From contig JAJFUM010000179.1 in NCBI GenBank assembly GCA_021372415.1, positions 1-41,599 on the forward strand: a stretch of 41,599 nt of DNA. Direction: 5' to 3'. A program made the translations under genes and the position numbers. Shown here piece after piece: positions 5,411 through 40,741 of this stretch (the stretch's first letter is position 1; every line of letters starts with the position of its first letter). The notes below the pieces were generated by a model. That model saw only the letters and a list, made by a program, of their open reading frames with translations. It searched no databases and was not told the DNA's origin. This stretch comes from Deltaproteobacteria bacterium. GTDB lineage: Bacteria > Desulfobacterota > Syntrophia > Syntrophales > UBA5619.

Positions 5411-5500
5411 CGTCCCCTGCCTATTCAGGCGGCAACCCTGAGCTGGTCGGCGTCATCTCCACGATGGGCTTGAGGGGCAAAGCGGACGGTCTCGAAAGGC

Positions 5501-5519
5501 GGGGAAGGTTCCCTTCCCC
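5501..5519 (-). terminator. Possible terminator hairpin after metG
   Basis: GGGGAAGG and CCTTCCCC form an 8-bp stem with a 3-base loop, 6 bases past the metG stop. On the minus strand only a short CCTTTC follows, so termination strength is doubtful. Confidence 0.4.
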
Positions 5520-5524
5520 CTCTC

Positions 5525-11431: not shown

Positions 11432-13165
11432 TCACGTCCAAACCGTCCACCACAGCAGGGCACTCACCCCGGCGACGATGTAACTGCTCTCCAGGAGTCC
11501 TTCCAGAACGACTCCGGAAAACGCGGACCTTTTATCATAAAGTTTTAAACAAATCCATATATAAAATACGGAAGTGGATAGGATGAACCCGGCGTAAGTG
11601 GACCAGCCGACCAGGGGGGCCGCCACGAGGAGCATCAGCAGGACCACCGAGGTCCCCTCGATCAGGAGGAGGGTCCTTTTTTCCCCGATGAGGACCGGCA
11701 GGGTCTCCCGGCCGATCAGGCGGTCGCTCTGGATGTCGAGGATGTCCGAAAGGGCGGAACGGATGAAGACGATGCCCGCGGTGAAGAGAAAGGCGACCGC
11801 GAGCCTCGGCGTGAGGACCAGGCTCGGTTCGATCCCCGGCAGAAGGGCCGTCACGGCCGCCCAGGCAACGGCGGTGGCGATGTTCTTAGAACCGGGGATG
11901 TCCTTCAGGCTCTGGAAGCGCCAACCTGGCGGCAAAAGGTTGGCGGTGTACAGGAGCCCCAGGAGGGTGATGGCGAACAGGAGGATGAAGGAGGCCGGGC
12001 CGGCGACGAAGGAGGCGCTCAATGCCAGGACCATGGAGAGGATCGCCAGGGTGATGTAGATCTTCTCGTGAAGGAGGTAGGACTCCTCACGAAACGAGCT
12101 GATACTGCTGGCTTTTCGGTTGATGAAGCGGTTCAGGATGTGCATGGCGAAGACGTAAAGGCTGGCCGTTAGGAGGTGGAGGAGGTTCACGGGCAGACCC
12201 TGGATGAGCGTGGCGGCCAGGGACAGGCATCCGGCGCCCGTGGCGGAATAAATATCCGTGCGGACCGTGAAGACCCAGCCCTTGAACAGGAGCCTGAAAA
12301 CTTCTTTCCGTTTCCCCTGGCGGTCGGTGAGGTGGTCCATCACCCGATCGATGATCCAGTTGGGTGTCGAGGCCCCCGCGGAAACACCGATCCGGCGGTA
12401 GGGGCTGATGTCGATCCCCCTCAACTCATCGTCGGTCTCGATATGAAAGGAGGGCTTCCCCTGGAGTCTCGCCAACTCCGCAAGACGCCGGGTATTGGCG
12501 CTGTTGCGTCCGCCAACGATGAAGACGGCATCCGTTTCGGAGGCGAGGGTCTTGATCTCCGACTGGCGTTTCTCCGTGGAGTCGCAGATGGTGTCGAAGA
12601 CGACCGCCTCGGGGAATTTCTCCCGGATCCGCCCAACGATCGCGGCAAACTCCTCGATGCTCTGCGTCGTCTGAGCGACGACGCATACCTTCTCAAGTTC
12701 GGGGAGGCATTCGACATCCTCCGGGGCGCCCAGGACGATCCCCCTCTCCCCGGCAAAACCAAAAAGGCCATTCACTTCGGGATGTTCCCTGTCCCCGACG
12801 ATGAGGACCGCATACCCCGCGGCGGCGTGTTTCCTTATGATTGCCTGGACGTGGGCCACCTTGGGGCAGGTGGCGTCAACGATCCGGAACCCCTTTTCCT
12901 TGATCTTCTGCCGCTCGGCAGGAGAGATGCCGTGGGTGCGGATGATCATGGCGGCACCGGGAGGGGTGTTGGCGATCTCGTCGAGACTCCGGATCGGGAC
13001 GATGCCCCGCTTCCGGAGAAGCTCGATCGTCTGGGGGTTGTGTATCAGGGGACCGTAAGTGAAGATCGCCTCATGGCCCTTGCGGCGGGCCATGTCGAGG
13101 ACCATATCCATGGCCCTTCTCACCCCCATACAGAATCCTGCGGTGTTGGCCAGTTTGACGCTCAT
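11432..13165 (-). CDS. ispH: IspH (HMBPP reductase) fused to a UbiA-like prenyltransferase domain
   Basis: A 577-residue fusion. Residues 1-285 are a complete IspH, the last enzyme of the MEP pathway (HMBPP to IPP and DMAPP), with [4Fe-4S] ligands Cys12, Cys100 and Cys194. Other IspH residues are also present: His41, His78 and His128 (EHPE), the AQTTQS loop, the SAN motif and SAGASTP. Residues from about 300 to 577 are hydrophobic, with roughly eight membrane helices resembling UbiA. The second Asp motif is intact (SDILDIQSDRLIGRETLPV). The first, normally NDxxDxxxD, reads LNRFINRKAS and lacks its aspartates. The ATG at 13165 overlaps the tlyA stop as ATGA. The IspH part should be active; activity of the UbiA part is uncertain. 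Confidence 0.93.
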   Translation of the reverse strand: MSVKLANTAGFCMGVRRAMDMVLDMARRKGHEAIFTYGPLIHNPQTIELLRKRGIVPIRSLDEIANTPPGAAMIIRTHGISPAERQKIKEKGFRIVDATCPKVAHVQAIIRKHAAAGYAVLIVGDREHPEVNGLFGFAGERGIVLGAPEDVECLPELEKVCVVAQTTQSIEEFAAIVGRIREKFPEAVVFDTICDSTEKRQSEIKTLASETDAVFIVGGRNSANTRRLAELARLQGKPSFHIETDDELRGIDISPYRRIGVSAGASTPNWIIDRVMDHLTDRQGKRKEVFRLLFKGWVFTVRTDIYSATGAGCLSLAATLIQGLPVNLLHLLTASLYVFAMHILNRFINRKASSISSFREESYLLHEKIYITLAILSMVLALSASFVAGPASFILLFAITLLGLLYTANLLPPGWRFQSLKDIPGSKNIATAVAWAAVTALLPGIEPSLVLTPRLAVAFLFTAGIVFIRSALSDILDIQSDRLIGRETLPVLIGEKRTLLLIEGTSVVLLMLLVAAPLVGWSTYAGFILSTSVFYIWICLKLYDKRSAFSGVVLEGLLESSYIVAGVSALLWWTVWT

Positions 13166-13973: not shown

Positions 13974-15881
13974 TCAGGGACGCGCCAGCATCTGGCGGAC
14001 CGCCGCCGCGATTCCTTCGGCATCGATCCCGTAAAAACTCCGAAGCTCCCTCTGGGTCGCATGCTGGACGAACTCGTCCGGGATAGCCAGGCACCGGATG
14101 CGGACGCCGGTGATCCCCTTTTCTGCGAGCAGCTCCAGGACGGCACTTCCAAATCCCCCCATCCGGACATTCTCCTCGACGGTGACGAGGGTCCCGATCT
14201 CCTCGGCCGCGCTGCAGAGGAGGGACTCGTCGAGGGGCTTCACGAAGCGCGCGTTGATGACCCGGACTGGGATCCCCTCGGACAGGAGGCGCTCGGCGGC
14301 GGCCAAGGCGGGATAAACGCAGGAACCGATGGCGGCCAGCGCGATCCGGGCGGCGGGGGGATCCATGAGGATCTCGCCCTTGCCGACGGGGATCGCCGTG
14401 GGCTTCTCGTCCAGGGGCACGCCGAGACCCGCCCCGCGGGGATAGCGCAGGGAGGCAGGGCCGCCACAGGTCACGGCGGTTTTGAGCAGGTGCTGAAGCT
14501 CGTTTTCGTCCTTCGGGGCCATGACGACGATGTTCGGGACGGTGCGCAGGAATGTGAAATCGAACAGGCCGTGGTGCGTGGGGCCGTCGGCGCCGACCAG
14601 GCCGCCCCGGTCCAGCGCCATGACCACCGGGAGGTTCTGCAGACAGACGTCGTGGATCACCTGATCATAGGCCCGTTGCATGAAGGTCGAATAGATCGCC
14701 ACAATCGGGATGAGACCCTGGGTGGCCAGCCCCGCGGCGAAGGTCACGCCGTGCTGCTCGGCCATCCCCACGTCGTAGAACCGGTTCGGGAACTTCCCGG
14801 CGAACTGGTCGAGTCCTGTTCCCTCGGACATGGCCGCGGTGATCGCGACGATCCGGGGGTCTTCCTCGGCCAGGGTCACGACGGTCCGGCCGAAGACCTT
14901 GGTGTAGGAGGGGGGGGTGGGGGACGGTCCCCCGTTGACCGGCTCGCCCGTGTCGATGTCGAAGGGCGGCATGCCATGGAAACGCGAGGGGTCGTTTTCG
15001 GCGAAGTGGTAACCCTTCCCTTTCTGGGTCAGGACGTGGACGAGGACCGGCCCCTCCAACTGGCGGACATTCTCCAGATTCTTGATCAGGGGGTCGAGGC
15101 GGTGCCCCTCCAAGGGACCCACGTAAGTGAACCCCAGCTCCTCGAAGATCGCACCGGGGACGAAGAAGGTCTTGAGCGATTCCTCGACCTGGCGGGAGAA
15201 CTTCAGCATCTGCTCCCCGATGCCGGGGACCGACTTGAGGAAGGTCTTGACTTCAGCCCGGATCCGGCTGACGGTCTGGCCGGTCATAATCCGGTTCAGG
15301 TAGGAAGAAAGGGCGCCGACATTGGGGGAGATGGACATCTCGTTGTCGTTGAGGATGATGATCATGCCCTTGCGGCGGTCGCCGGTCCAGTTGAGCCCCT
15401 CGAAGGCCATCCCTGCGGAGATGGCGCCGTCTCCAATGACGGCGATGATCCGGAAGTCCTCTCCCTTGAGGCAGCGCGCCTCGGCCATTCCCGCCGCCGC
15501 CGAGATGGAGGTCCCGCTGTGGCCCACGTTGAAGACATCGTAGGGGCTCTCCTCCCGTTTCGGGAAGCCGCTGAGTCCCCCCTTCTGGCGGAGGGTGCCG
15601 AAGCGATCCTTCCGGCCCGTGATGATCTTGTGGGCATAGGCCTGATGCCCCACGTCCCAGACGAGACGGTCCCGCGGGGTGTCGAAGACGTAATGGATGG
15701 CCAGCGTCAGCTCCACCGTCCCCAGGGACGAGGCGAGGTGGCCTCCCCGGCGGGAGACGGTTTCGATCATCAACTCCCGGATCTCCTCCGCCAGGCGGCC
15801 CAGCTCAGCCAGGCTGAGCCTCCGGATATCCTCGGGGAAATTGACCCTTGCCAGAATGCTGTCGTTACGGTTATCGGTCAT
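13974..15881 (-). CDS. dxs: 1-deoxy-D-xylulose-5-phosphate synthase
   Basis: A thiamine-diphosphate enzyme that condenses pyruvate and glyceraldehyde 3-phosphate, the first and flux-controlling step of the MEP pathway. It is 635 residues. The ThDP motif begins at GDGAISAGMAFEGLN and ends at LNDNEMSIS. The start contains GGHLASSLGTVELT and WDVGHQAYAHKI. The pyrimidine-binding domain has DRGGLVGADGPTHHG, and a C-terminal transketolase domain follows. The start is the ATG at 15881, with no strong ribosome-binding site. A 192-base gap separates it from ispA and holds a good promoter candidate, so dxs-tlyA-ispH may have independent transcription. Confidence 0.97.
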   Translation of the reverse strand: MTDNRNDSILARVNFPEDIRRLSLAELGRLAEEIRELMIETVSRRGGHLASSLGTVELTLAIHYVFDTPRDRLVWDVGHQAYAHKIITGRKDRFGTLRQKGGLSGFPKREESPYDVFNVGHSGTSISAAAGMAEARCLKGEDFRIIAVIGDGAISAGMAFEGLNWTGDRRKGMIIILNDNEMSISPNVGALSSYLNRIMTGQTVSRIRAEVKTFLKSVPGIGEQMLKFSRQVEESLKTFFVPGAIFEELGFTYVGPLEGHRLDPLIKNLENVRQLEGPVLVHVLTQKGKGYHFAENDPSRFHGMPPFDIDTGEPVNGGPSPTPPSYTKVFGRTVVTLAEEDPRIVAITAAMSEGTGLDQFAGKFPNRFYDVGMAEQHGVTFAAGLATQGLIPIVAIYSTFMQRAYDQVIHDVCLQNLPVVMALDRGGLVGADGPTHHGLFDFTFLRTVPNIVVMAPKDENELQHLLKTAVTCGGPASLRYPRGAGLGVPLDEKPTAIPVGKGEILMDPPAARIALAAIGSCVYPALAAAERLLSEGIPVRVINARFVKPLDESLLCSAAEEIGTLVTVEENVRMGGFGSAVLELLAEKGITGVRIRCLAIPDEFVQHATQRELRSFYGIDAEGIAAAVRQMLARP

Positions 15882-18666: not shown

Positions 18667-18792
18667 GATTCCTGCTCAGGGATCGGCGCATCTGCCGACC
18701 GGAGCGGCCCGCCGCCGTTTCCTCCCACCGGGAGTTCCGGCCGGATTCGTTTCCCGCCGCCACGGCAGCCATAAAAAACAACAGGGGAGTTT

Positions 18793-19812
18793 ATGAAAAA
18801 GAAAGAGTTTCTGAAGACGCCCGTCCGGCATATCGACATCACCTCCTTCGACGCCACGCCGATCATCGAGCAGATGAAGGAAATGTCCTTCACGGCCCGT
18901 GATCTGGCCGTTGCCGCCGACATCTACGACCGGATGCTTGCCGAGAAACGGTGCGGCGTGATCCTGACCATCGCGGGGAGCACCAGCGCCGCGGGGTGCA
19001 TGCAGGTCTATGTGGAGATGGTGAAGAACAACATGGTGGACGCGATCGTCGCCACGGGGGCCACGATCGTGGACATGGATTTCTTCGAGGCCCTCGGTTT
19101 CAGGCATTACCAGGGGACGCCCTTCGTGGACGACAAGGTCCTCCGGAAGCTTTACATCGACCGGATCTACGACACCTTCATCGACGAGGAGGAACTCCAG
19201 GCCTGCGACCGGACGGTCCAGACGATCGCCGACGGCCTTTCTCCCCGCCCCTATTCCTCCCGGGAGTTCATCCGGGAGATGGGGCGCTATCTGACGGAGC
19301 ACAGCGTCAAGAAGGAGTCCCTCGTCCAGGCCGCCTTCGAGAACGATGTCCCGATCTTCTGCCCGGCCTTCTCTGACAGCAGTGCCGGCTTCGGCCTCGT
19401 CCTGCACCAGGTGAAACACCCCAAGACTCACCTTTCCATCGACTCGGTCAAGGATTTCCGTGAGCTCACCGAGATCAAAATCAAGGCAGGGACGACGGGC
19501 CTTCTGATGATCGGCGGCGGCGTGCCGAAGAACTTCGCCCAGGATACGGTGGTCTGCGCCGAGATCCTCGGGAAGAAGGCCCCGATGCACAAGTACGCGG
19601 TCCAGATCACCGTGGCCGACGTCCGCGACGGGGCCTGTTCCAGCTCCACGCTCAAGGAGGCCAACTCCTGGGGGAAGGTGGACAGCAGTTGCGAGCAGAT
19701 GGTCTATGCCGAGGCGACCTCGGTCCTGCCGCTGCTGGCCAGTTACGCCTGGCACCGGGGGAACTGGAAGAAGCGGAAGGCCTGGCGGTTCTCCGGAATG
19801 TTCAAAGAGTAA
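18793..19812 (+). CDS. Deoxyhypusine synthase-like protein
   Basis: A 339-residue member of the deoxyhypusine synthase family (NAD-dependent transfer of an aminobutyl group from spermidine). Bacteria lack eIF5A, and some bacterial homologues act in homospermidine or related polyamine synthesis. The catalytic lysine region is conserved: KEANSWGKV, with Lys295 corresponding to human Lys329. The family GGG..K..  segment reads GGGVPKNF, so the two histidines of true DHS (KHH) are replaced by Asn247 and Phe248. This predicts a different acceptor or donor. It is a monocistronic unit: strong promoter at 18637, AGGGGAG before the ATG, terminator at 19912. The family is sure; the substrate is not. Confidence 0.88.
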   Translation: MKKKEFLKTPVRHIDITSFDATPIIEQMKEMSFTARDLAVAADIYDRMLAEKRCGVILTIAGSTSAAGCMQVYVEMVKNNMVDAIVATGATIVDMDFFEALGFRHYQGTPFVDDKVLRKLYIDRIYDTFIDEEELQACDRTVQTIADGLSPRPYSSREFIREMGRYLTEHSVKKESLVQAAFENDVPIFCPAFSDSSAGFGLVLHQVKHPKTHLSIDSVKDFRELTEIKIKAGTTGLLMIGGGVPKNFAQDTVVCAEILGKKAPMHKYAVQITVADVRDGACSSSTLKEANSWGKVDSSCEQMVYAEATSVLPLLASYAWHRGNWKKRKAWRFSGMFKE

Positions 19813-19911
19813 AACCACGAGACAGGCCGGAAAAGGCAGAAAAACCGGGATGGGCAGGAGAACCGGCTCTGATGCCGGGAACGATGCGTGTTCCGGGGAA
19901 AATAAAAATAA

Positions 19912-19950
19912 GGGGGCAGGCGCCGTTCCCTCCGGTGCCTGCCCCCTTTT
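19912..19950 (+). terminator. Strong Rho-independent terminator
   Basis: GGGGGCAGGCGCCG (19912-19925) pairs over 14 positions (one G-U) with CGGTGCCTGCCCCC, followed by TTTT. It lies 100 bases past the deoxyhypusine-synthase-like gene. An A-rich stretch before it would let it work on the other strand too. Confidence 0.88.
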
Positions 19951-19980
19951 CCACGCCGCGGACCTTGCTTTCACTGGAAA

Positions 19981-20026
19981 AAAGTGGTAGGCAAATCCAT
20001 CCGGCCGGATGATCGAAAACCACTTT
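19981..20026. repeat. Interrupted inverted repeat with a 14-bp palindromic core
   Basis: Arms AAAGTGGT (19981-19988) and ACCACTTT (20019-20026) flank a perfect palindrome CATCCGGCCGGATG (19998-20011). It lies 150 bases upstream of the enolase-superfamily gene. A regulator-binding site or cruciform is possible. The 363-base gap 19813-20175 otherwise holds the terminator above and no gene. Confidence 0.4.
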
Positions 20027-20175
20027 GAAATCTTCATTTGCGACCGATTGACCGTCTCTGAGCGGTTGTCACCGGGGATGATCGTGCATCTTGGGTCGGG
20101 AATCCGGCCATGGGAAGTGACCCGCTTCCCTTCCTCCCACGGAAGCCGATCCCGACGACTCGACAGGAGGATCCG

Positions 20176-21411
20176 ATGAAGATATCCGAGATCGAGCTTT
20201 ATCATGTCAGTGTTCCGCTGAAGCACACCTTCTGGCCCACCTGGATCCCCGGGTACCCTCAGACCCACAACCGCTTCACCCTCATCCGGATCACGACGGA
20301 CGAGGGCATCGAGGGGTACTCGGCAGGGACGGCCATGGGCGCCGAACGGCAGGGACTGGGCGATCTGCTGGGCGGCTACCTGATCGGGGCCGATCCCACC
20401 GACATCGGCCGCATCCAGGGCCTGCTCAAACAGGCGGGCTTCCTCGGCTGGCGCAACTTCTGGATCGAACCGGCCTGCTGGGACATCGCGGGCAAGGCCC
20501 AAGGCAAGCCCGTCTACGAGCTCCTCGGGGGCGAGGCCAGGCCCGTGGAGGTTTATTGTTCCTTTGGCGAGCTGCACGAACCGGGAAGACGAGTGGAAGA
20601 GCTGCTGGCCATGCGGGAACGCGGCTTCAGGACCTTCAAACTGCGGGTGAAGGCGGCGGAATTCAAGGATGACGTGAGATTGATCCAGGAGGTCCGGAAG
20701 GGCGTGGGCGACGGCCCCCTGATCGGCGTGGACGCCAATCAGGGATGGCTGGTCTCCATCGTGGACCGCCTCCCCGCCTGGGACCTCCAGCGCGCCTCGG
20801 ATTTCGCCAGGGCCTGTGCCGATCACGGGATCGAGTGGCTGGAAGAGCCCCTGGACTGGCACGACTACGACGGCCTGGCGGCCCTCAAGAAGATCTCGCC
20901 CGTCAAGATCTCCGGGGCCGAGCTCAACCACGGCTGGGACGAAATCAAGATCATGTTCGAGAAGGACTGTTTCCACGTTTACCAGCCGGACGCCACGTTC
21001 GCCGGCGGGATTGCCCAGGTCCGGCAGGTGATCGAGGCCTGCCACGAACGGGACCGGCTCTTCTCGCCGCACACCTGGACCAACGGCATCGGCTTCTACG
21101 TCAACTGGAATATGGTCCTGGCCGACAAGGCCAACCGGCTCCCATTGGAGTATCCCCTGGAGGAACCCTCCTGGGTGCCGCAGTTCAGGGAGGGCATCAT
21201 CGAGCCCATCGTGCCCGACCAAAACGCCATGCTGCAGCCCTTCAGGCGGCCCGGCCTGGGATTCGAAATCGACGGAAAACTGCTCCGCAAATACGGGAAG
21301 CGCTTCTATCGCATCACCGGGCGCAGCCTGGCCTTCAAGGTCATCCGGGAGAAAGGGCTCAAAACGGCCCTGGCCCTGAAGAAGCGCAAAGAGGGGCATG
21401 GGCAGCGGTGA
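20176..21411 (+). CDS. Enolase-superfamily enzyme (mandelate racemase/muconate lactonizing type)
   Basis: A 411-residue enolase-superfamily protein; these enzymes remove the alpha proton of a carboxylate using Mg2+. The capping domain is N-terminal. The barrel then shows KLRVK (Lys155-Lys159), metal ligands Asp186 (GVDANQGW), Glu223 (WLEEPLDW) and Glu249 (SGAELNHG), Asp272 (QPDATFAGG) and His299 (SPHTWTNG). The set fits a racemase or sugar-acid dehydratase subgroup. The ATG at 20176 has AGGAGG six bases upstream; a longer reading from 20110 has none. The last 45 residues are unusually basic (KRFYRITGRS, ALKKRKEG) and go beyond the usual barrel end. The substrate cannot be assigned. Confidence 0.88.
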   Translation: MKISEIELYHVSVPLKHTFWPTWIPGYPQTHNRFTLIRITTDEGIEGYSAGTAMGAERQGLGDLLGGYLIGADPTDIGRIQGLLKQAGFLGWRNFWIEPACWDIAGKAQGKPVYELLGGEARPVEVYCSFGELHEPGRRVEELLAMRERGFRTFKLRVKAAEFKDDVRLIQEVRKGVGDGPLIGVDANQGWLVSIVDRLPAWDLQRASDFARACADHGIEWLEEPLDWHDYDGLAALKKISPVKISGAELNHGWDEIKIMFEKDCFHVYQPDATFAGGIAQVRQVIEACHERDRLFSPHTWTNGIGFYVNWNMVLADKANRLPLEYPLEEPSWVPQFREGIIEPIVPDQNAMLQPFRRPGLGFEIDGKLLRKYGKRFYRITGRSLAFKVIREKGLKTALALKKRKEGHGQR

Positions 21412-24782: not shown

Positions 24783-26161
24783 GAAACCTTCCCCTCTCCG
24801 CGGATCGCGGCCGCCAGCCTTCTGAGTTCCCCCTCCAGGCCGATGGGATCGCGGCTGGCGGTCCCGGCCACACAGATCCGGCTGCCCTCCTCACGGGCCT
24901 TCAGCAGGATCCGCACGCGGCGGTGGGAGAAGAAAAAGACAGTGATCAGCCCCGCGATGAGCAGGATGGCCCCCGCGGCGACCAGCGGGGCGCCGGGGTC
25001 GCGGGTCGCCTGCAGGACCGTATAGAACCGCTCCCCACCCCTCTGGAGCGAGAAGATCCAGGGGGCAAAGAGTCCCGGATTCATGAGCGGGACCTGCGAG
25101 AGGATCCCCGGGTTTGCCTCCTTGATCCTCTCGATGTTCTGGAACACCCAGAACTGGAAGTCCCCCCGGGACGATCTCACGGCCAGTTTGACCGCCGGCC
25201 CCATCCGCATGAGGTTCCCCTCGGCGCGCAGGACCTCGACCTCGCCGCCGGCGCCCGGCAGTTCGAAACGCTCGCCCACGGTGATCTCCCGTTGGACCTT
25301 TTCCTCCCGCCCTTTGGCATAGGAAAGCGTCATCCGGCCGCCGGGCAGGATGCCGTAGCTCGACTGGTAGAAGCGCAGACCGCCGAAGTCGATGGGGTGG
25401 TTGACCAGGAGCGGCCCCTGATGGACGACCTGCCCGCCCTTGAGGAAGCTGAGGTCGGAGCGGAAGACCTTCGGTGCGCCGCTCGCATAGTATTCCACGG
25501 TAAAGCGGTCGCAGCGGATGCTGAATTCGAGGGGAAGGGACGGTTCGCCGCGACGCTGCAGGACGTTTGAGGACTCCCCCTCGACGATCTCGATGGACCC
25601 CTTCACGCCCATCAGGCCGCCGGCCATCCCGCCTGCGATCATGGCCAGGACCCCGAAATGGACGACGTACACCCCGAAGCGGGAGAAGCCTCCCTTCTCG
25701 GCGGCAATCAGGAGTCCCTGGGGGTGTTCCGTCTTCACGAGGCGCCGCCATCTTCTGGCGAGGAGGGCCTCGATCCTTACGGCCGCCTCGTCGGGCGGGC
25801 GGTCCGTCTCGACGATCCTCTCGGGCGGAAGCGCCGCGAAAAGCCCTGGATCAATCGGCCCCGTTACTCCCCTGAACTGCCGCCAGGCAGCAGGGAAGCG
25901 GTCGAGAGAACAGGCGATGAGGTTGACCGCCAGAAGCCCGAGGAGCCCGATAAACCAGACGGAGTGATAGACATCGAAGAGTTGCAGGGCCTGGAACAGG
26001 GCCGCAAGCGAGGGATTGAGCTTTTCGGCAAAGGCCTCGGCGGCTTCCTGCTGGGGGATGATGGTCCCCACCACGGCACCCAGCGCGATCGCGGCCAAAA
26101 GGACGATCGAAAGCCTGACGGAGGTAAGGAAATCACGGATGCCGCTTCCTGGTTTCGCCAT
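24779..26161 (-). CDS. resB: System II cytochrome c biogenesis protein ResB/Ccs1
   Basis: The partner of CcsA in heme delivery and apocytochrome handling, 460 residues. Two N-terminal helices (VLLAAIALGAVVGTIIPQ, VWFIGLLGLLAVNLIA) are followed by a third (VYVVHFGVLAMIAGGMAGGL) and a large extracytoplasmic domain containing FGGLRFYQSSYG. A final helix (AGAILLIAGLITVFFF) precedes a short basic cytoplasmic tail. This layout is typical of the family. The start is the ATG at 26161, preceded by GGGAGAG. It is the first gene of resB-ccsA-HAD; a 115-base gap separates it from the SCP2-like gene upstream. Confidence 0.92.
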   Translation of the reverse strand: MAKPGSGIRDFLTSVRLSIVLLAAIALGAVVGTIIPQQEAAEAFAEKLNPSLAALFQALQLFDVYHSVWFIGLLGLLAVNLIACSLDRFPAAWRQFRGVTGPIDPGLFAALPPERIVETDRPPDEAAVRIEALLARRWRRLVKTEHPQGLLIAAEKGGFSRFGVYVVHFGVLAMIAGGMAGGLMGVKGSIEIVEGESSNVLQRRGEPSLPLEFSIRCDRFTVEYYASGAPKVFRSDLSFLKGGQVVHQGPLLVNHPIDFGGLRFYQSSYGILPGGRMTLSYAKGREEKVQREITVGERFELPGAGGEVEVLRAEGNLMRMGPAVKLAVRSSRGDFQFWVFQNIERIKEANPGILSQVPLMNPGLFAPWIFSLQRGGERFYTVLQATRDPGAPLVAAGAILLIAGLITVFFFSHRRVRILLKAREEGSRICVAGTASRDPIGLEGELRRLAAAIRGEGKVS

Positions 26162-26276
26162 ATCTCTCCCGCATTTCCCGGCCGCCTTGCCCGCAAAGGG
26201 GTGCGGGGCCTCTCACCCCTTCCGTTCTTTCCGGTCTGCGGACCCCTTTGGCCGACCCGAGGGTTCGGGAGATTAT

Positions 26277-26717
26277 TTACACCACGGACATGAGGATTGT
26301 CAACCGCGTGAGGAAGAGCGGATGGGCGAACATCCCCTTGATCTTTAGCCTGCCCGCACAGAGATGGCCCAGGACCTTCCGGCCCGCCTCGTCGCCGTAC
26401 CAGGGAAGCCCGCCGACGATCCGGATCGCATTGAGGTCCGTCACTTGCCCGGAGGTGGTCCGGATGACGATCAGGGGATTCCCGACGACCCCGGCTTCGA
26501 CCCGGAGCCGGCCCTGAGCGAAGATCAGGGTCACCGCCGCCTCGATGTCGGTCAGCTCGATGGCTGCGCCCCCTTTCATCCTCTCGAAGAGGGCCCGCTT
26601 CTCGGGATGCTGCGTCAGGTTTTCCATCAGGAGGTCGGCGAGGATCCCGGCGAAGGGAACCCCGTCGGCCCGATTGTCGATCCATCCTTGCTCCGTCCTA
26701 GCCAGCGCATCTTCCAT
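26277..26717 (-). CDS. SCP2-like (sterol carrier/lipid-binding fold) protein, copy 2
   Basis: A 146-residue soluble protein that I read as SCP2-like, a fold with a hydrophobic cavity for acyl chains or other lipids. The pattern is a helical start (EKRALFERMKGG), strands (AAVTLIFAQGRLRVEAG, PLIVIRTTSGQVTDL), a helical stretch (GRKVLGHLCAG) and a final RLKIKGMFAHP with a hydrophobic tail. The start is the ATG at 26717, one base after the alcohol dehydrogenase stop; the ORF extended to 26795 reads backward into that gene. It closes the operon aldehyde oxidoreductase, SCP2, alcohol dehydrogenase, SCP2. The family call is by pattern only. Confidence 0.65.
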   Translation of the reverse strand: MEDALARTEQGWIDNRADGVPFAGILADLLMENLTQHPEKRALFERMKGGAAIELTDIEAAVTLIFAQGRLRVEAGVVGNPLIVIRTTSGQVTDLNAIRIVGGLPWYGDEAGRKVLGHLCAGRLKIKGMFAHPLFLTRLTILMSVV

Positions 26718-26718
26718 C

Positions 26719-27882
26719 TCAGAATGCCTCCCGATAGACGGCCAGGACCTCCTCCGCATCCAGGACCGGCCGCGGGTTGTTGACGATCGCCCCATCGGAG
26801 AGGCTGAGCGCCGCGGCCCTGGTCAAATCCTCCTCCTTAACGCCCGCCTGGGAGAGCCGCTCGGGATGGCCGATCCGGACGAGAAAGGAACGGATCGCCG
26901 AGACGGCTGCCTCCGCGGCCTCCCGTTCCCCCATCCCCCTCTCCCGCGCTCCCAGGGCCTCGGCGGCCATGGCGTACGCCTCCGCTGCCTCCTCGAGATT
27001 GAAGGCCATTACATGGGGCAGGAGGATCCCGTTGGCGATCCCGTGGGGAACGCGGGCGACGGCCCCCAGCGAGTGGGCCATCGCATGGACCAGGCCGACC
27101 ATGGCGTTTCCGAATGCCCAGCCGGCCATCGTCGCGGCAAGCTGGACCTGGCCCCGGGCCGCCAGGTCGTGGCCGTTTTGCGTGCAGGCGGGCAGGTGCC
27201 GGTGCAGGAGACGGATGGCCTGCATGGCCAGCCCGTCGGCGATCGGCTCCCGCTGCACCGATTGGAGGGCCTCTACGGCATGGGTCATGGCATCCATTCC
27301 CGTCGAGGCCGTAAGCCCTGGCGGCAGCCCCTCGGTCATGACCGGATCGAGGATGGCGATCCTGGGGGTGTTGAAATACTCGACAATGAGGATCTTCTGC
27401 CCCTTTCTCTCGTCGAGGACCACGGCCATGCAGGTCACTTCACTCCCCGTACCCGCCGTCGTCGGGACGACGATATGGGGCGTCTGCGGCCGGGTGAGGA
27501 GCTGGATCCCCTCGATGGCCTCGAGTCCTCCCCCTTCGGTCAGGAGGATGCAGATCCCCTTTCCCGTGTCGATGACGCTCCCGCCGCCCACGCTGACGAC
27601 ACAGTCGGCGCCGCGTCCTCGGGCGTAGTCGGCGGCCCGGTTGATGACCCCCAGCCCGGTGTCCTGGGGGACGTCGTCCCAGATCCCCACGCACTGTCCG
27701 CCGAGCGCCTTGAGGATCCCTTCGACGAGTCCCGCCTTCCTCACCCCCGGGTCGGTCACGACCAGCGCGCGGCTGCAGCCGAGACCTGCCATCTCCGCCC
27801 CGACGTCACGCGCAGTCCCGGCACCGAAGACCACCTTGGTCGGGCCAAAGTAGACAAACGACAAATCCCGATCATATGCCAT
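26719..27882 (-). CDS. Iron-containing alcohol dehydrogenase
   Basis: A group III NAD(P)-dependent alcohol dehydrogenase, 387 residues, interconverting an alcohol and an aldehyde. The N-terminal Rossmann-like domain contains FGPTKVVFGAGT and the nucleotide motif GGGSVIDTGKG. PTTAGTGSEVT and GMDAMTHAVEAL are family signatures. The metal-binding histidines lie in GLVHAMAHSLGAV and PHGIANGILLPH. Length and motifs are complete. It lies between the two SCP2-like genes (1-base and 34-base gaps) downstream of the aldehyde:ferredoxin oxidoreductase, so acid-aldehyde-alcohol interconversion is the natural reading. The chain length of the substrate is unknown. Confidence 0.95.
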   Translation of the reverse strand: MAYDRDLSFVYFGPTKVVFGAGTARDVGAEMAGLGCSRALVVTDPGVRKAGLVEGILKALGGQCVGIWDDVPQDTGLGVINRAADYARGRGADCVVSVGGGSVIDTGKGICILLTEGGGLEAIEGIQLLTRPQTPHIVVPTTAGTGSEVTCMAVVLDERKGQKILIVEYFNTPRIAILDPVMTEGLPPGLTASTGMDAMTHAVEALQSVQREPIADGLAMQAIRLLHRHLPACTQNGHDLAARGQVQLAATMAGWAFGNAMVGLVHAMAHSLGAVARVPHGIANGILLPHVMAFNLEEAAEAYAMAAEALGARERGMGEREAAEAAVSAIRSFLVRIGHPERLSQAGVKEEDLTRAAALSLSDGAIVNNPRPVLDAEEVLAVYREAF

Positions 27883-27916
27883 GGAACCTTCCTCCCGCGG
27901 CAGGATGCCGCCCCGC

Positions 27917-28342
27917 TCAGGCCTCGTCCGGCCAGAGGGTTTCGATCTCGCAGAGCAGGTCGATCACCTTGTTGACGGTTTTGATGTTCCGGACCACGTA
28001 GGTCAGATCCCCCTTGAGCTTGATCTTCCCCTGCATGAGGGCCTTGGTGGCATCGACTTCCTTCTTGGCCACCTGCTTCCAGCGGACGTAGTCGCCGGAC
28101 ATGACGAACTTGGCGCTTTCCGCCTTTGCCTTGTCGCAGATCAGAAAATCCAGGACATCGCCGTGCCAGTAGTCTGTGAAGAGGTAAATCGTCTCGGGGA
28201 TCCCCTTCGCGGGATCGGCATTCACGATGATCGAGACGCTCCCCTCCCAGTTCTTGGCAATCTCCTTGTACTCATGCGATTCCGAGATCTTCCGCTTCCA
28301 CACATCGAGCCACTCCTGTGTCATTGCCGGGTATCCTGCCAT
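27917..28342 (-). CDS. SCP2-like (sterol carrier/lipid-binding fold) protein, copy 1
   Basis: A 141-residue soluble SCP2-domain candidate. After a helical N-terminus (EWLDVWKRKISES) come strands (GSVSIIVNADP, TIYLFTDYWHGDV) and the characteristic end: KFVMSGDYVRWKQV, then ALMQGKIKLKGDLTYVV and a final amphipathic helix. The ATG at 28342-28340 has AGGAGG five to six bases upstream, which overrules the longer ORF. It stands between the aldehyde oxidoreductase (91-base gap) and the alcohol dehydrogenase (34-base gap). It may present a hydrophobic aldehyde or acid to these enzymes; that is inference. It is not closely similar to copy 2. Confidence 0.72.
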   Translation of the reverse strand: MAGYPAMTQEWLDVWKRKISESHEYKEIAKNWEGSVSIIVNADPAKGIPETIYLFTDYWHGDVLDFLICDKAKAESAKFVMSGDYVRWKQVAKKEVDATKALMQGKIKLKGDLTYVVRNIKTVNKVIDLLCEIETLWPDEA

Positions 28343-28433
28343 GGCTGCCTCCTTGACATGAGATGATGGTCTTGCTGTTGGCTCCTTTTTCTTTTCGCAT
28401 AACCGAAGGGGAACGAGACGCCGCTCCCTTTTT

Positions 28434-30293
28434 TCAGGGATAAAGACGCACCCGGAGTTCGTCGAGCCCCAGTTCTCCGAGCTTCTCAGCCCGCGGGAAG
28501 CCTCGTTCATCCAGGCCCCGCAGGGCGTAGTATTCATGCTTGAGCCTCTCCACGTCGGGGACCGACCCGGCACCGGCGCCCTCCGCAAGGGGCGTCAGGA
28601 TCCGCTTGGGCAGGGCATCGTCTCCGGCCCTCACCCCCAGGAGGTTGTTGATCCCCCGCTTGAGGGTCCAGTCCCGGGCCCCGCAGGTCATCAGGTCGGC
28701 AAAGGTGAAGTCGAAGCCGGTGATCGCGTTGAAGGCGTCGCGGATCGTTTCGGGTTTGAGGCAGTCCGTGAGGTAATGACAGAGGGAAAGCGAATTTCCG
28801 AGGATCCCGTAGTTTTCCGAGTGGAAGACGAGCTCCGCCTTTCCCTCGCTCGTCGTCCCCTGGTAGTCGTCCTTCATGGGGAAGAGCTGGGGCCAGGAGG
28901 CCATCCCCTGTTCCGTGGCCAGGACCGCATGCTGGAGGTGGCAGGCCCCCCGGTTCGACATCATGTAGGCCAGCCCCATTCCGTGGAATCCCCTGGGGTC
29001 GTGCATGGGAAGCTCCAGCCCTTTGACATGGACAACGGCGTCGACGGCCTCGCCGCCGATCCGCTCGGCCGCCCGGAGACTCCCCTCGGCGAGCTGATCG
29101 CCGAACCCCTCCCGCCGGGCGATCCGGTTCAGGAGCGTCAGGACCGTCTCCATGTTGCCCCAGGCTAGGTCGAGGCCGCCGGCGGCCTCCCTCGTCAGGA
29201 GCCCCTTTTCGGTCATCTCCATCGCCCAGGCGATCGCGGCCCCGCAGCTGATCGTGTCCATGCCGTAGCGGTTGCACAACTCGTTGGCCTTGATGACCCC
29301 AGCCAAGTCCCGGTTCATGATCATCGTCCCGAAGGTGGCGCAGGTCTCGTACTCAGGCCCCGGCCCCTCCTCGGTCCGGAAGGGGCCGTCAGGGACCCTG
29401 ACAACCCGCTTGCAGGCGATCGGACAGTGGGTACAGGCGTGGGCGCGGGTGAGGTAGGTTTCGGAAAGGGTGGGGCCGCTGAGCGCGGTGGCCAATTCGA
29501 AGTCTTCTCCCACGCTCCAGTTCCGGACGGGCACGTCGCCGTTGATCATGCCGATGTCCATGTTCGCGTCGGAGCCCATGGCATGGAGCGAACCGGCCAG
29601 GGCCGACTCCTTGATTTCCAGGAAGGCCTCCTTCTGGATTTCCCGGAAACGCACCTCGTCGGCCTTGTCCGCTTTCCCATCCCCCCGGACCGAGATCGCC
29701 TTGAGCCTCTTGGCCCCCATGACTGCCCCAAGGCCCGTCCGGCCCACAAAGTGACCCTTGTCGTTGCCGATCGCCGCGAAGCGCACGAGGTTCTCGCCGG
29801 CCTGGCCGATGGCCAGGACCTTGACGGCCCGATCGCGCTCCTTGAGCCGGTCGGTGGTTTCGTAGGTGTCCGTCCCCCAGAGATCTGCGGCATTGGTCAG
29901 CGATGCCCGGCCGTCCAGGATGGAAAGGACGACCGGTGCCTCCGAACGGCCGGTGATCACGATCCCGTCGTAGCCGGCCTTCTTGAGTTCCGGACCGAAG
30001 GTCCCGCCGCAGGCCGACTCCCCCCAGATCCCCGTAAGTGGGGATCTGGCGCAGACCGCAAAGCGCGACGTCCCCGGGAAGCCGCTGCCCACCATGGGTC
30101 CGGTCATGATCATGAGCGGACTCTCCGGGGCGAAGGGATCGGCCTCAAGCGGAAAACCCTTCAGATAGAGCCAAGCCCCCAGAGCGCTCCCGCCGATGAA
30201 TTTCCTCAGGAGTGTTTCTTCGACGGTGAAATCGGAACAGAGCCCGGCGGTCAGATCGACGCGCAGAAAACGCCCGGCATACCCCTTGGCCAT
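28434..30293 (-). CDS. aor: Aldehyde:ferredoxin oxidoreductase (tungsten-pterin)
   Basis: A tungstopterin enzyme that oxidises aldehydes to acids with ferredoxin, or reduces acids in the reverse direction. It is 619 residues. The N-terminal domain begins GYAGRFLRVDLT and has FIGGSALGAWL and GRTGLGAVMGAK. The cluster ligands are Cys287, Cys290 and Cys294 (ACTHCPIACK) with Cys505 (SLSLCHYL), at spacing very like the Pyrococcus enzyme. The pterin-binding segment is HDPRGFHGMGLAYM followed by SNRGACH. GGAGGAGGG precedes the ATG. It heads the AOR-SCP2-ADH-SCP2 operon. The two ferredoxin clusters encoded at 10315-10488 would suit it as partner. Subfamily substrate preference is not readable. Confidence 0.95.
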   Translation of the reverse strand: MAKGYAGRFLRVDLTAGLCSDFTVEETLLRKFIGGSALGAWLYLKGFPLEADPFAPESPLMIMTGPMVGSGFPGTSRFAVCARSPLTGIWGESACGGTFGPELKKAGYDGIVITGRSEAPVVLSILDGRASLTNAADLWGTDTYETTDRLKERDRAVKVLAIGQAGENLVRFAAIGNDKGHFVGRTGLGAVMGAKRLKAISVRGDGKADKADEVRFREIQKEAFLEIKESALAGSLHAMGSDANMDIGMINGDVPVRNWSVGEDFELATALSGPTLSETYLTRAHACTHCPIACKRVVRVPDGPFRTEEGPGPEYETCATFGTMIMNRDLAGVIKANELCNRYGMDTISCGAAIAWAMEMTEKGLLTREAAGGLDLAWGNMETVLTLLNRIARREGFGDQLAEGSLRAAERIGGEAVDAVVHVKGLELPMHDPRGFHGMGLAYMMSNRGACHLQHAVLATEQGMASWPQLFPMKDDYQGTTSEGKAELVFHSENYGILGNSLSLCHYLTDCLKPETIRDAFNAITGFDFTFADLMTCGARDWTLKRGINNLLGVRAGDDALPKRILTPLAEGAGAGSVPDVERLKHEYYALRGLDERGFPRAEKLGELGLDELRVRLYP

Positions 30294-30399
30294 GGTTCCC
30301 TCCTCCCAAGCTTCAAGACGTATGTACCAACGATGACGGAGACCGTTTCAAACCCGGCATCACGGTTTTTTCTTCATTGAGTGAAATGCGCAGAGACAG

Positions 30400-30444
30400 G
30401 TGGTGTTCAATTGACTATCACATCTCTCGGTTAAAGTCCACCAC
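30400..30444. promoter_or_regulatory. Imperfect inverted repeat upstream of the aldehyde oxidoreductase operon
   Basis: GTGGTG (30400-30405) and CACCAC (30439-30444) enclose TTGAC (30411-30415) and GTTAA (30430-30434), which also pair with one wobble. It lies about 110-150 bases upstream of the operon start in a 286-base gap (30294-30579) that is less GC-rich than its surroundings and has no gene. It could be an operator; no convincing promoter was found near it. Confidence 0.28.
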
Positions 30445-30579
30445 ATTGGAATTCGAAATTCCCGAGCATGCGGGAAACCACCATCGATCCCCGGAAGCCT
30501 CCGATCCGCCGCTTCCTCAGAGCTGCAAACGCTCCCGTGAGGACGGGAAAGTACAGTGGCGGCGACGGATGCAGGCCGA

Positions 30580-31416
30580 TTAAAGGATGAAGGGAAAAGG
30601 GGGAAGCGTGAGCGGATTGAGGCGGTCACCCTCGTAGAGGACCTGGGCGAGGAAGAGACCCGACGGGGGCGCCGTGCAGCGTGCGGGAACCGGCGAAGCC
30701 GAGGTCAGCATCCCCTCGATCTCGGCCCGGGACAGGGCCCCCCGGCCCGCCTCGACCAGGATGCCGACGATGCGACGGACCATCTTCCAGAGGAAGTGGG
30801 AACCGGCGATCCGAAAAACGATCAGGTCCCCCCAGGAGACGAATTCCGTCTGATCGATCTGGACTTCTGTGGAGAGATGTTTGTCGATCCGCCTGTCGGC
30901 GAAGGAGGCGAAGTCGTGGAATCCTCGGAACACCTCTGCTGTCGTCCTCATAAGGTCGAGATCGAGATTGTCCTTCACCCACCAGACGTATCGTTTGCCG
31001 AAGGCGGTCCGTGAACGCGAGATCAGGTAGAGGTAGCTCCTCCCTCTCGCATCGTGACGGGCATGGAATTTGGCCGGGGCCTCCTCGACGGCAAGGACGT
31101 TGACGGGGGCAGGCAGAAGATCGTTCAGCCCGTAGAGGATCTTCTGCGGCGCCAGCGGGTGCGGGGCCTCCAGGTGGGCAACCTGGGCCAGGGCGTGGAC
31201 GCCGGCATCGGTCCGGCCTGCCCCCTGAATCTCCACGTCGGCGCCGAAGAGCTCCCTGGCCGTTGCGATCAGTGTCCCCTGGATGCTCCGTGCGTTGGCC
31301 TGCATCTGCCAGCCGCTGAAACCCGTTCCGTCATACTCGATCACCAGTCGGTACCGGCATCGGGACGCCGTCGAGCCTGTCCTCGTTCTTCCTGTCCGGA
31401 CCTGTTTTCGGTTCAT
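30580..31416 (-). CDS. truA: tRNA pseudouridine(38-40) synthase
   Basis: Converts uridines 38, 39 and 40 of the tRNA anticodon arm to pseudouridine. It is 278 residues. The catalytic Asp70 lies in GAGRTDAGVHA, preceded by RLVIEYDGTGFSGWQ and RSIQGTL. FHARHDARGRSYLYLI and the later GSHFLWKMVRRIVG are further TruA signatures. The first 20 residues are basic and variable. The ATG at 31416 overlaps the stop of the NlpC/P60 gene as ATGA, so translation is probably coupled although the functions look unrelated. Confidence 0.96.
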   Translation of the reverse strand: MNRKQVRTGRTRTGSTASRCRYRLVIEYDGTGFSGWQMQANARSIQGTLIATARELFGADVEIQGAGRTDAGVHALAQVAHLEAPHPLAPQKILYGLNDLLPAPVNVLAVEEAPAKFHARHDARGRSYLYLISRSRTAFGKRYVWWVKDNLDLDLMRTTAEVFRGFHDFASFADRRIDKHLSTEVQIDQTEFVSWGDLIVFRIAGSHFLWKMVRRIVGILVEAGRGALSRAEIEGMLTSASPVPARCTAPPSGLFLAQVLYEGDRLNPLTLPPFPFIL

Positions 31417-39245: not shown

Positions 39246-39338
39246 TTATGGCGTCAAGAAATCCAGGAAGGTTCCAGAAGGAAAGGGGGGCTTCAGAAAA
39301 ACGTCCCATTCACCGGTTAACAGAAAGGAGGGTTCCAG

Positions 39339-40478
39339 ATGAAAAGGTTTATCGGGGTTGTGGCATGGGTACTGGTATCTTGCATGTTCTGTATTGCCCA
39401 GGCCCAGGGGGGGTATGTCGAGCCGACGAGCGACCAGTACCGGAAGGTGATCGACAACAAGCAGGTCGATCTGTACACGATCAAGAACAGCAAGGGGATG
39501 GTGGTGAAGATCACCAATTACGGCGCCAAGATCGAACAGATCCTGGTCCCCGACAAGAAAGGCGTCTTCGCCGATGTCGTTCAGGGTTATGAAAGCATCG
39601 ACAAGGCCGTCGGCGGCCAGGGATCGATGGGGGCTTTCGTCGGCCGCTACGCGAATCGGATCGGCAAGGCGAAATTCACGCTGGACGGAAAAGAATACCA
39701 ATTGGCCAAGAACAACGGCGAGAACAGTCTCCACGGCGGGCAGAAGGGATCGCGGTTCTGCGTCTTCGATGCCCATCAGATCAACGACTCCATGGTCGAG
39801 ATGTCCTATACGTACAGGGACGGTGAAGAGAATTATCCCGGCACCTTGGCCACGCGCGTGCTTTACGAGGTCACCCCTGACAACGAACTGGTGGTCGACT
39901 ATCAGGCCTTTGCCGTCGACAAGAACACGGTGGCCAATTTCACCACGCACTCCTTCTTCAACCTGTCGGGAGACCTCGGCAGCGTGATCCTCGACCACGT
40001 GATCAAGGTCAACGCAAGCCATGTGCTGGAGATCGACGGCACGCTCATCCCCACGGGCGTCCTGAGGCCGGTGGCCGGCACCGTGATGGATTTCCAGCCG
40101 CCGATTTCCTTCGGCGCCCGCATCAAGTCCGATTACGATCTCCTCAAATACGCCAACGGCTACGACCACCACTATGTCCTCGACAAGTTGACCCCGAATG
40201 AACTGTCGTTCGCGGCCAGCGCCTACGAACCCAAATCCGGCCGCTACATGGAGGTGTGGACGACCGAACCCGGCATGCAGCTCCATACGGGCAACAACCT
40301 CGAAGGGAAGGCCCCGCGGGATGTGGGCAAAGGGGCCACGTTCATCTTCCGCTCCGGCTTCAACATGGAGCCCTCCCGCTTCCCCGATTCTCCGAACAAG
40401 CCGGATTTCCCCACGACGGTCATCCAGGCCGGGCAGTGGTTCTCCGGAAGGACGGTCTATAAGTTCTCCGCGAAATAG
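39339..40478 (+). CDS. Exported galactose mutarotase (aldose 1-epimerase)
   Basis: Interconverts alpha and beta anomers of aldoses. It is 379 residues. It starts with a signal peptide (MKRFIGVVAWVLVSCMF, probable cleavage after AQA near residue 23), so it is likely periplasmic. The mature part shows YGAKIEQILVPD, GRYANRIGKAKF, NSLHGG with His132, TTHSFFNLSG with His204, GYDHHYVL and the C-terminal MEPSRFPDSPN, whose Glu should be the catalytic base. In many family members this last motif is EPQxFPD, so Gln is replaced by Ser. AAAGGAGG precedes the ATG at 39339. No sugar catabolic genes are adjacent, so the role (scavenging polysaccharide sugars) is inferred. Confidence 0.94.
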   Translation: MKRFIGVVAWVLVSCMFCIAQAQGGYVEPTSDQYRKVIDNKQVDLYTIKNSKGMVVKITNYGAKIEQILVPDKKGVFADVVQGYESIDKAVGGQGSMGAFVGRYANRIGKAKFTLDGKEYQLAKNNGENSLHGGQKGSRFCVFDAHQINDSMVEMSYTYRDGEENYPGTLATRVLYEVTPDNELVVDYQAFAVDKNTVANFTTHSFFNLSGDLGSVILDHVIKVNASHVLEIDGTLIPTGVLRPVAGTVMDFQPPISFGARIKSDYDLLKYANGYDHHYVLDKLTPNELSFAASAYEPKSGRYMEVWTTEPGMQLHTGNNLEGKAPRDVGKGATFIFRSGFNMEPSRFPDSPNKPDFPTTVIQAGQWFSGRTVYKFSAK

Positions 40479-40492
40479 CGCATGCGCTTCTC

Positions 40493-40524
40493 TTGGGGCA
40501 CCGGGCCCACCCGGCGCCCCAAGG
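40493..40524 (+). other. GC-rich hairpin after the epimerase gene
   Basis: CTTGGGGC with GCCCCAAG and CCGGG with CCCGG form a 13-bp stem interrupted by a one-base mismatch, with a 4-base loop. It begins 15 bases past the stop; no T-run follows. A 10-base palindrome GCGCATGCGC (40479-40488) lies between stop and hairpin. Confidence 0.5.
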
Positions 40525-40643
40525 GGATTCAAGCCCGGCCCGCCCGGGATCGAGGGGATCGGCAAAGCCCCGGTACCGGGCGGGGCCGGAGGGAAAACCA
40601 CCACCGTCTTGCCCGCCATCCGAGCAAAGGCCGGGGAATTCGC

Positions 40644-40672
40644 TTGACACCCCGGAGGGGCCTTCCTATACT
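40644..40672 (+). promoter_or_regulatory. Strong sigma70 promoter of the cupin gene
   Basis: TTGACA (40644-40649) and TATACT (40667-40672) are separated by 17 bases; eleven of twelve positions match consensus. Transcription would start about 63 bases before the cupin ATG. Confidence 0.82.
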
Positions 40673-40741
40673 CCTTTGCCGGGGTGGACCCGACCCAACA
40701 AGGCCTGCCCGCTGGGGAAAGCCCCATCGCCTGGAGGCGCC

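Follow-up and report, generated by a model that had tools for sequence, protein, structure and literature searches.

A conserved operon joining an aldehyde oxidoreductase and an iron-type alcohol dehydrogenase with two SCP2-fold proteins: a candidate module for hydrophobic alcohol oxidation

A four-gene operon in the window (the whole 41,599-nucleotide stretch analysed) joins an aldehyde:ferredoxin oxidoreductase (AOR) and an iron-type alcohol dehydrogenase (ADH) with two small SCP2-fold proteins, SCPa and SCPb, and the full order AOR-SCPa-ADH-SCPb recurs at 32 of the 69 SCPa places examined. We propose, with about even confidence, that this module oxidises a hydrophobic primary alcohol via the aldehyde to the acid and thereby feeds acyl-CoA metabolism, with the SCP2-fold proteins acting as carriers.

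Layout and products of the operon

The genes are read on the minus strand from 30293 to 26277, with gaps of 91, 34 and 1 nt (Table 1), which bears out, at unchanged coordinates, the four-gene operon with short gaps described in an earlier note on this DNA. SCPb starts at the ATG at 26717, 1 nt past the ADH stop and preceded by GGGAGG; a listed open reading frame that reaches 26795 begins inside ADH. Shine-Dalgarno-like stretches could be read at all four gene starts, and a scan of 26100-30700 returned no sigma-70 promoters (0.4 expected) and four terminator-like sites (3.3 expected). According to Pfam, AOR is flanked by TruA (PF01416) upstream and SCPa downstream. The upstream truA family recurs in 8 of 40 sequences compared, and the downstream ResB/CcsA genes, considered as a possible part of the module, are absent from the recurring families listed among 40 sequences and were therefore taken as chance neighbours. 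No acyl-CoA ligase or beta-oxidation gene lies inside the window's own operon.

Table 1. Positions and assignments of the four operon genes in the window.
Gene	Coordinates	Strand	Assignment
AOR	28434..30293	(-)	619 aa single-subunit tungsten-type aldehyde:ferredoxin oxidoreductase, first gene of the operon; PF01314/PF02730
SCPa	27917..28342	(-)	141 aa stand-alone SCP2-family protein; PF02036 over cut-off
ADH	26719..27882	(-)	387 aa iron-type alcohol dehydrogenase; PF00465 + PF25137
SCPb	26277..26717	(-)	146 aa divergent second SCP2-fold protein; PF02036 just under cut-off, predicted fold

AOR matches PF01314 (E 1.5e-124) and PF02730 (E 1.7e-72), and phmmer aligns it to 1aor at E 1.1e-120. Its Cys287, 290, 294 and 505 correspond to Cys288, 291, 295 and 494 of 1aor, the cysteines of the [4Fe-4S] cluster, and Glu316 and His452 to Glu313 and His448, the catalytic pair. 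The AFOR_N and AFOR_C domains, the cluster cysteines, the Glu/His pair and the absence of a gene for the WorS iron-sulphur small subunit in the operon or beside AOR place the protein among Class I tungsten oxidoreductases, and judging from its sequence it is probably a tungsten enzyme. ADH carries PF00465 (E 3.2e-45) and PF25137 (E 5.7e-56), and phmmer aligns it to the C-terminal half of 9ldl (E 4.4e-112) and to the 1,3-propanediol oxidoreductase 3bfj (E 3.6e-78). The Asp/His motifs of the metal site are conserved in these alignments and, together with the domains, identify an iron-type enzyme. The acid-aldehyde-alcohol chemistry suggested in the earlier note thus follows from the enzyme families. 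Neither ADH nor any of the ligases found near the module in relatives reaches its NCBIfam equivalog cut-off, and therefore no substrate is assigned to them.

SCPa is a member of PF02036 (E 4.9e-10, 40.1 bits against a cut-off of 21.3), and its profile matches 1wfr and 2cx7 at E 2e-32 to 5e-32. Its AlphaFold2 model (pLDDT 94.2) superposes on 2cx7 with Z 20.5 and rmsd 1.6 over 129 aligned residues, which assigns it the SCP2 fold. SCPb itself scores 19.2 bits (E 0.0016) and does not reach the gathering cut-off of 21.3, so we term it an SCP2-fold protein and not a curated SCP2 member; its homologue in L054 lies above the cut-off at 21.8 bits, and in its family 23 of 27 proteins hit PF02036 at E<=0.01 (best 2.2e-6). 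Since the SCPb sequence profile found nothing in the PDB at E<=1, the predicted fold (pLDDT 82.2, pTM 0.74) was compared instead. Foldseek placed the SCP2 domain of UbiJ first (6h6p, E 9e-7), the SCP2-like domain of the alkylsulfatase Pisa1 (2yhe) gave Z 12.4, and most SCP2 structure entries gave Z 8-12, in agreement with an SCP2 fold for the predicted model. The earlier view that both small proteins are SCP2-like therefore stands after profile searching, for SCPa through Pfam and for SCPb, whose own score is below the cut-off, through its family members and predicted fold. Recent duplication of one gene from the other was not supported, profile comparison of the two being weak (hhalign probability 4.8, E 0.0084). 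Fold matches of the small proteins include 1pz4, the structure of an SCP2 protein together with a C16 fatty acid, and 2cfz, that of an alkylsulfatase carrying an SCP2-like domain together with 1-dodecanol.

Gene order and AOR lineages among relatives

Relatives preserve both the order and the strand, which makes the four-gene grouping more than chance and agrees with the earlier expectation that these genes stay together. In addition to the 32 places with the full order, AOR is near SCPa at 52 of the 69 places and ADH at 47. AOR is missing within 4.5 kb at the other 17, and at eight of these no partner gene that was looked for is present; ADH without AOR in that range occurs at 5/69. SCPa is thus tied to AOR in many places, not everywhere. 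The count covers neither the short loci (L001-L028 and L068-L092) nor the loci centred on AOR (L125-L164). Duplicate rows were removed (L095, L113, L114, L115, L121, L159 and L164, equal to L045, L034, L033, L041, L030, L062 and L118, respectively, by the length or coordinates of the contig), and AOR pieces below 500 aa and ADH pieces below 330 aa were left out. In a phylum-wide sample, AOR lay within 4 kb at 24 of 28 SCPa places and ADH and SCPb were present at 19 of 28 each, on the same strand throughout. AOR-ADH pairs without SCP2 are present in the same genomes (L125-L143), as are many AORs with no SCP2 gene nearby. The module is found in many oxygen-avoiding bacteria, and record titles of uncultured carriers indicate fens, sediments and groundwater.

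The 49 SCP2-linked AORs do not form one clade (AU p 0.0002; unrooted tree in which several long branches meet), and therefore more than one AOR lineage adjoins SCPa. This speaks against a single origin of the SCP2-AOR link, although an unrooted tree does not separate gain from loss. L118_10, whose label rests on a distance of ~3.3 kb, was omitted from the second AOR tree.

Proposed function and alternative readings

In the proposed pathway, the iron-type ADH would use NAD(P) to oxidise a hydrophobic primary alcohol to its aldehyde, the putative tungsten AOR would convert this aldehyde to the carboxylic acid with electrons passing to ferredoxin, and an acyl-CoA ligase would activate the acid, which could then enter beta-oxidation or related acyl-CoA chemistry. 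Some relatives have a ligase gene next to the module; in the window's genome, which holds 16 AMP-ligase and 15 acyl-CoA dehydrogenase matches, it presumably lies elsewhere. SCPa and SCPb would keep the alcohol, aldehyde or acid, all poorly soluble, in a cavity and relay it from one soluble enzyme to the other, and would in this way also curb harm from the reactive aldehyde.

Neighbouring genes point towards acyl-CoA metabolism. FadD-like ligases adjoin the module in L100 and L108 and score best, although below cut-off, with long-chain fatty-acid--CoA ligase models; other AMP-ligases lie near it in L035, L050 and L062. Acyl-CoA dehydrogenases occur near the module in L100 and L108, thiolases in L059 and L105 and ETF in L109, and acyl-CoA reductase-like genes join it in some relatives. 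L062 has a gene for a GMC-type FAD oxidoreductase upstream, and no iron-type ADH was found there. Fumarate addition to alkanes was dismissed as a source of the substrate, the window's genome having no PFL-like glycyl-radical match.

Identical gene content would serve the opposite direction, in which a ferredoxin-driven AOR would reduce a hydrophobic acid and ADH would yield the alcohol, either as an electron sink or to provide the fatty alcohol of ether lipids or wax-like products, with the SCP2-fold proteins carrying acid and alcohol. Such acid reduction by AOR and ADH is documented in fermenters, according to the available part of PMC10816221, and most of the 69 SCPa places have no ligase beside the module. 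However, the genes added in relatives (acyl-CoA ligases, acyl-CoA dehydrogenases, ETF and thiolases) indicate acyl-CoA catabolism, and we regard the reductive direction as unlikely.

The earlier note had suggested hydrophobic or long-chain substrates such as fatty alcohols or aldehydes. A hydrophobic substrate suits the SCP2 folds and the genes for FadD-like ligases, acyl-CoA dehydrogenase, thiolase and ETF near the module in relatives, whereas a specifically long-chain fatty one is made less certain by the resemblance of SCPb to UbiJ, a ubiquinone-synthesis protein, and by benzoyl-CoA-reductase/2-hydroxyacyl-CoA-dehydratase-like genes near AOR and the ligase in L108 and L109. An oxidative module may therefore act on isoprenoid or (alkyl)aromatic alcohols or aldehydes in place of straight fatty ones. 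The UbiJ likeness is at the level of fold, with 13-17% identity, and the L100 and L108 ligases favour the long-chain models, so that this substrate range appears quite improbable.

UbiJ is thought to act as a scaffold or assembly protein in the Ubi complex. By analogy, the SCP2-fold proteins might be scaffolds for AOR and ADH, or helpers in AOR maturation, and not carriers; the presence of SCPa beside AORs of more than one lineage would suit an AOR partner. This reading, which we rate as very unlikely, sits poorly with the five places where SCPa accompanies ADH with no AOR within 4.5 kb, the eight where it has none of the partners looked for, and the many AORs in the same genomes that lack a nearby SCP2 gene. 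A general role in detoxifying aldehydes, without a dedicated substrate and with the SCP2 genes as passengers, is hardly credible given the fixed order of two SCP2 genes at 32/69 places and the presence of more than one AOR lineage beside SCPa, even though the accessible text of the 2026 classification (PMC13328260) assigns that role to several characterised single-subunit tungsten oxidoreductases.

Returning to hydrophobic alcohol oxidation, we tentatively extend the proposal beyond this operon: SCP2-fold proteins could be dedicated carriers of free fatty or otherwise hydrophobic alcohols, aldehydes and acids in anaerobes, passing them from one soluble enzyme to the other between tungsten AOR and iron-type ADH and serving more than one AOR lineage, and tungsten-enzyme clades so far uncharacterised would thus gain a role in hydrophobic alcohol oxidation. 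According to the same classification, just five of the 92 clades of tungsten oxidoreductases contain a member whose physiological role has been defined (PMC13328260). The ordered operon offers such an enzyme a testable one, in moving aldehydes that are toxic and dissolve poorly from one soluble enzyme to the next in anaerobes, and places stand-alone bacterial SCP2 proteins, whose first structures appeared about 20 years ago with no function known, in a metabolic setting.

Relation to known systems

We found no description linking SCP2 or sterol-carrier proteins to AOR, tungsten, aldehyde or ADH in a literature search that covered subscription papers and preprints thinly, which suggests that the joining of the AOR-ADH couple, itself already known, with SCP2 proteins is so far undescribed. 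In the AOR-ADH pathway of the Thermoanaerobacter type, AOR and an alcohol dehydrogenase interconvert acid, aldehyde and alcohol (PMC10816221); here AOR and ADH are encoded in one operon and would act on the same substrate. Unlike that pathway, for which the available text has neither 'SCP' nor 'sterol' and reaches aldehydes up to octanal, the present operon includes two SCP2-fold proteins.

AOR resembles Class I tungsten oxidoreductases (WorL only) in being a single large subunit with no small-subunit gene in its operon, its closest solved relative being P. furiosus AOR (1aor). However, the accessible part of the 2026 classification names a ThiS-like WorX neighbour and says nothing of genes for SCP2 or sterol carriers (PMC13328260). 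SCPa shares fold and sequence family with the Thermus SCP2 protein TT1886 (1wfr, 2cx7), but the two are only 29% identical and the TT1886 entries say only 'possibly sterol carrier protein'. The nearest folds to SCPb are the UbiJ SCP2 domain and the SCP2-like domains of the alkylsulfatases SdsA1 and Pisa1, whereas identity to these is just 9-18% and SCPb is a stand-alone protein encoded directly behind ADH. MFE-2-like enzymes with a fused SCP2 domain likewise bring SCP2 together with lipid-oxidising enzymes, and the window's genome encodes MaoC-SDR-SCP2 and SDR-SCP2 fusions adjoining a thiolase (L122); in contrast, the SCP2 proteins of the module are free-standing and placed with AOR and an iron-type ADH.

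Composition of the operon

The window carries a four-gene operon (Table) encoding a single-subunit tungsten-type aldehyde oxidoreductase (AOR), a stand-alone SCP2 protein (SCPa), an iron-type alcohol dehydrogenase (ADH) and a divergent SCP2-fold protein (SCPb). The genes are separated, in that order, by 91, 34 and 1 nt, and a Shine-Dalgarno-like stretch can be read before all four starts. A TruA gene (PF01416) lies 286 nt upstream of the operon and same-strand ResB and CcsA-type genes 115 nt downstream; no sigma-70 consensus was found around it. Elsewhere in the window, an isoprenoid gene group comprises a DXS gene and a single ORF in which LytB/IspH (residues 3-279) is fused with a UbiA prenyltransferase domain (residues 310-547), and two further ORFs without a Pfam match at E<=1e-8 may not be genes.

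Table. Features of the window and of two other loci
Location	Feature	Position	Strand	Length
Window	AOR	28434-30293	minus	619 aa
Window	SCPa	27917-28342	minus	141 aa
Window	ADH	26719-27882	minus	387 aa
Window	SCPb	26277-26717	minus	146 aa
Window	IspH-UbiA fusion	11432-13165	minus	577 aa
Window	DXS	13974-15881		
Window	ORF, possibly not a gene	18676-21399	minus	907 aa
Window	ORF, possibly not a gene	39246-40727	minus	493 aa
L037	AOR split over two frames	2936-4740		
L122 (G000:C354)	SCP2 fusion cluster	84-5855		

Pfam and profile matches together with comparisons of modelled folds identify SCPa and SCPb as SCP2-fold proteins from different branches. SCPa scores above the Pfam SCP2 cut-off, its profile matches the Thermus SCP2 entries 1wfr and 2cx7 (E 2e-32 to 5e-32), and its predicted model (pLDDT 94.2) superimposes on 2cx7 with Z 20.5 and rmsd 1.6 over 129 aligned residues. 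SCPb falls 2 bits short of the same cut-off, and 23 of 27 members of its family match SCP2 at E<=0.01. The best Foldseek match of the SCPb model (pLDDT 82.2) is UbiJ-SCP2 (E 9e-7), and comparison with alkylsulfatase SCP2-like domains and most SCP2 proteins gives Z of 8 to 12. Profile comparison led us to reject the idea that the two are close duplicates.

The AOR matches the Pfam domains AFOR_N and AFOR_C, and its nearest solved structure is P. furiosus AOR (1aor, E 1.1e-120). In the alignment it retains all four cluster cysteines as well as Glu313 and His448 (1aor numbering), which we take to be the catalytic residues. It has Lys at the position of Glu332, a residue described in a 2026 review as special to the P. 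furiosus dimer (PMC13328260). Pfam assigns the ADH to the iron-type alcohol dehydrogenases; its nearest match is the C-terminal half of the 886-aa aldehyde dehydrogenase family protein 9ldl, followed by methanol and propanediol dehydrogenases. Since it falls below every NCBIfam equivalog cut-off, its alcohol cannot be named from sequence.

Conservation and descent of the gene association

SCPa was detected in 20 of 100 relatives (E<=1e-5) and in 23 of 395 phylum-sample genomes (E<=1e-15; own genome counted), and its distribution is therefore patchy. Within 4 kb of the 28 SCPa places in the phylum sample we found an AOR in 24, an Fe-ADH in 19, SCPb in 19 and a ligase in five, invariably on the strand of SCPa; a contig edge directly follows SCPa in three of the nine places lacking an ADH (L094, L102 and L103). 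As the genome of the window (3.95 Mb in 477 contigs, the window being C123; completeness 97.0%, contamination 6.4%) contains eight AOR matches, we estimate that a random gene would lie equally near an AOR in about 2% of cases.

Pooling all sources and removing duplicates gave 69 SCPa places. The full order AOR-SCPa-ADH-SCPb occurs in 32 of them, seven of which carry an extra or split AOR, an extra ADH or a ligase; an AOR lies within 4.5 kb of 52 places and an ADH within that distance of 47. These shares do not equal natural frequencies because the collection was gathered via SCPa and holds many near relatives. Going by record titles, SCPa lies near an AOR or ADH in taxa including Syntrophaceae, Smithellaceae, Syntrophomonadaceae, Dethiobacter, Desulfobacteraceae and Anaerolineales. 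None of the searched-for partners was found within 4.5 kb at eight places; five of these are Actinomycetota loci, and L052 among them has just 414 nt of downstream sequence. These Actinomycetota homologues (L049, L052, L057, L063 and L067) have neither AOR nor ADH within 4.5 kb, and in L049 and L067 an ORF of 466-500 aa with a SEC-C motif follows. At L037 the AOR of the module is split over two overlapping open frames, pointing to a frameshift or to a mistake in the assembly.

When the 88 AORs of a tree are labelled by the presence of an SCP2 gene within 4 kb, the label requires at least four changes, compared with a mean of 28.7 after shuffling, and none of 500 shuffles was as low; the four changes persist when the doubtful row L118_10 is left out. 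With that row left out, a single clade of SCP2-linked AORs was rejected (AU test, p 0.0002). Most of these AORs belong to a large group including that of the window, to a further group including Syntrophomonadaceae and L062/L108-L110, or to a set consisting of L107/L119/L120 with L064 nearby. In the ADH tree (n=69), a single clade (SH-aLRT 99) holds 44 of 49 SCP2-linked ADHs, whereas the ADHs of L107/L119/L120 fall outside it. SCPa thus adjoins AORs of different descent, which favours a functional tie, although the trees are unrooted, were built quickly and include long branches. Many AOR-ADH pairs in these genomes lack SCP2 (L125-L143); the SCP2 proteins therefore distinguish some pairs and do not belong to every one.

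Proposed function and relation to known systems

We propose that the ADH would oxidise a hydrophobic primary alcohol and the AOR the resulting aldehyde with ferredoxin as acceptor, that a ligase would activate the acid for acyl-CoA catabolism, and that SCPa and SCPb would act as carriers for the intermediates, which dissolve poorly. While the enzyme steps follow from the families of the AOR and ADH, we infer the substrate, direction and carrier step. The main rivals are that the module runs in reverse, that its substrates are isoprenoid or aromatic, and that SCPb serves as a scaffold.

Neighbouring genes give hints of function. Genes for AMP-dependent acyl-CoA ligases occur near the module at several loci, those of L100 and L108 scoring highest, below cut-off, against long-chain fatty-acid--CoA ligase models. 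Upstream of the ligase-AOR-SCPa-ADH-SCPb genes, L100 encodes a biotin carboxylase and an acyl-CoA dehydrogenase; L105 has thiolase, SDR and ligase-like genes and L059 a thiolase gene. L108 combines an acyl-CoA dehydrogenase, SCPa, SCPb, AOR and ligase with two benzoyl-CoA reductase/hydroxyacyl-CoA dehydratase-like (HGD-D) genes, and L109 combines SCPa, SCPb, AOR, ETF, a ligase and a second SCPa with two HGD-D genes and an activase. L110 likewise has genes for SCPa, an AOR and an acyl-CoA ligase, and the three loci possibly represent a further SCP2-linked anaerobic acyl-CoA cluster. At L062 a GMC-type FAD oxidoreductase gene precedes SCPa-AOR-ligase, and no Fe-ADH was found there. In the genome of the window, 15 matches to acyl-CoA dehydrogenase and 16 to AMP-ligase were found, and none to a PFL-like glycyl-radical enzyme.

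Our search of the open-access literature found no paper linking SCP2 or sterol carrier proteins with AOR, tungsten, aldehydes or alcohol dehydrogenase, and a word search of the 2026 tungsten oxidoreductase survey (PMC13328260) found neither "sterol" nor "SCP". In the same genome as the window, L122 encodes MaoC-SDR-SCP2 and SDR-SCP2 fusions next to a thiolase, a cluster resembling MFE-2-like β-oxidation. The AOR-ADH couple is already known (PMC10816221), and the module is a variant on this couple whose components are all known.
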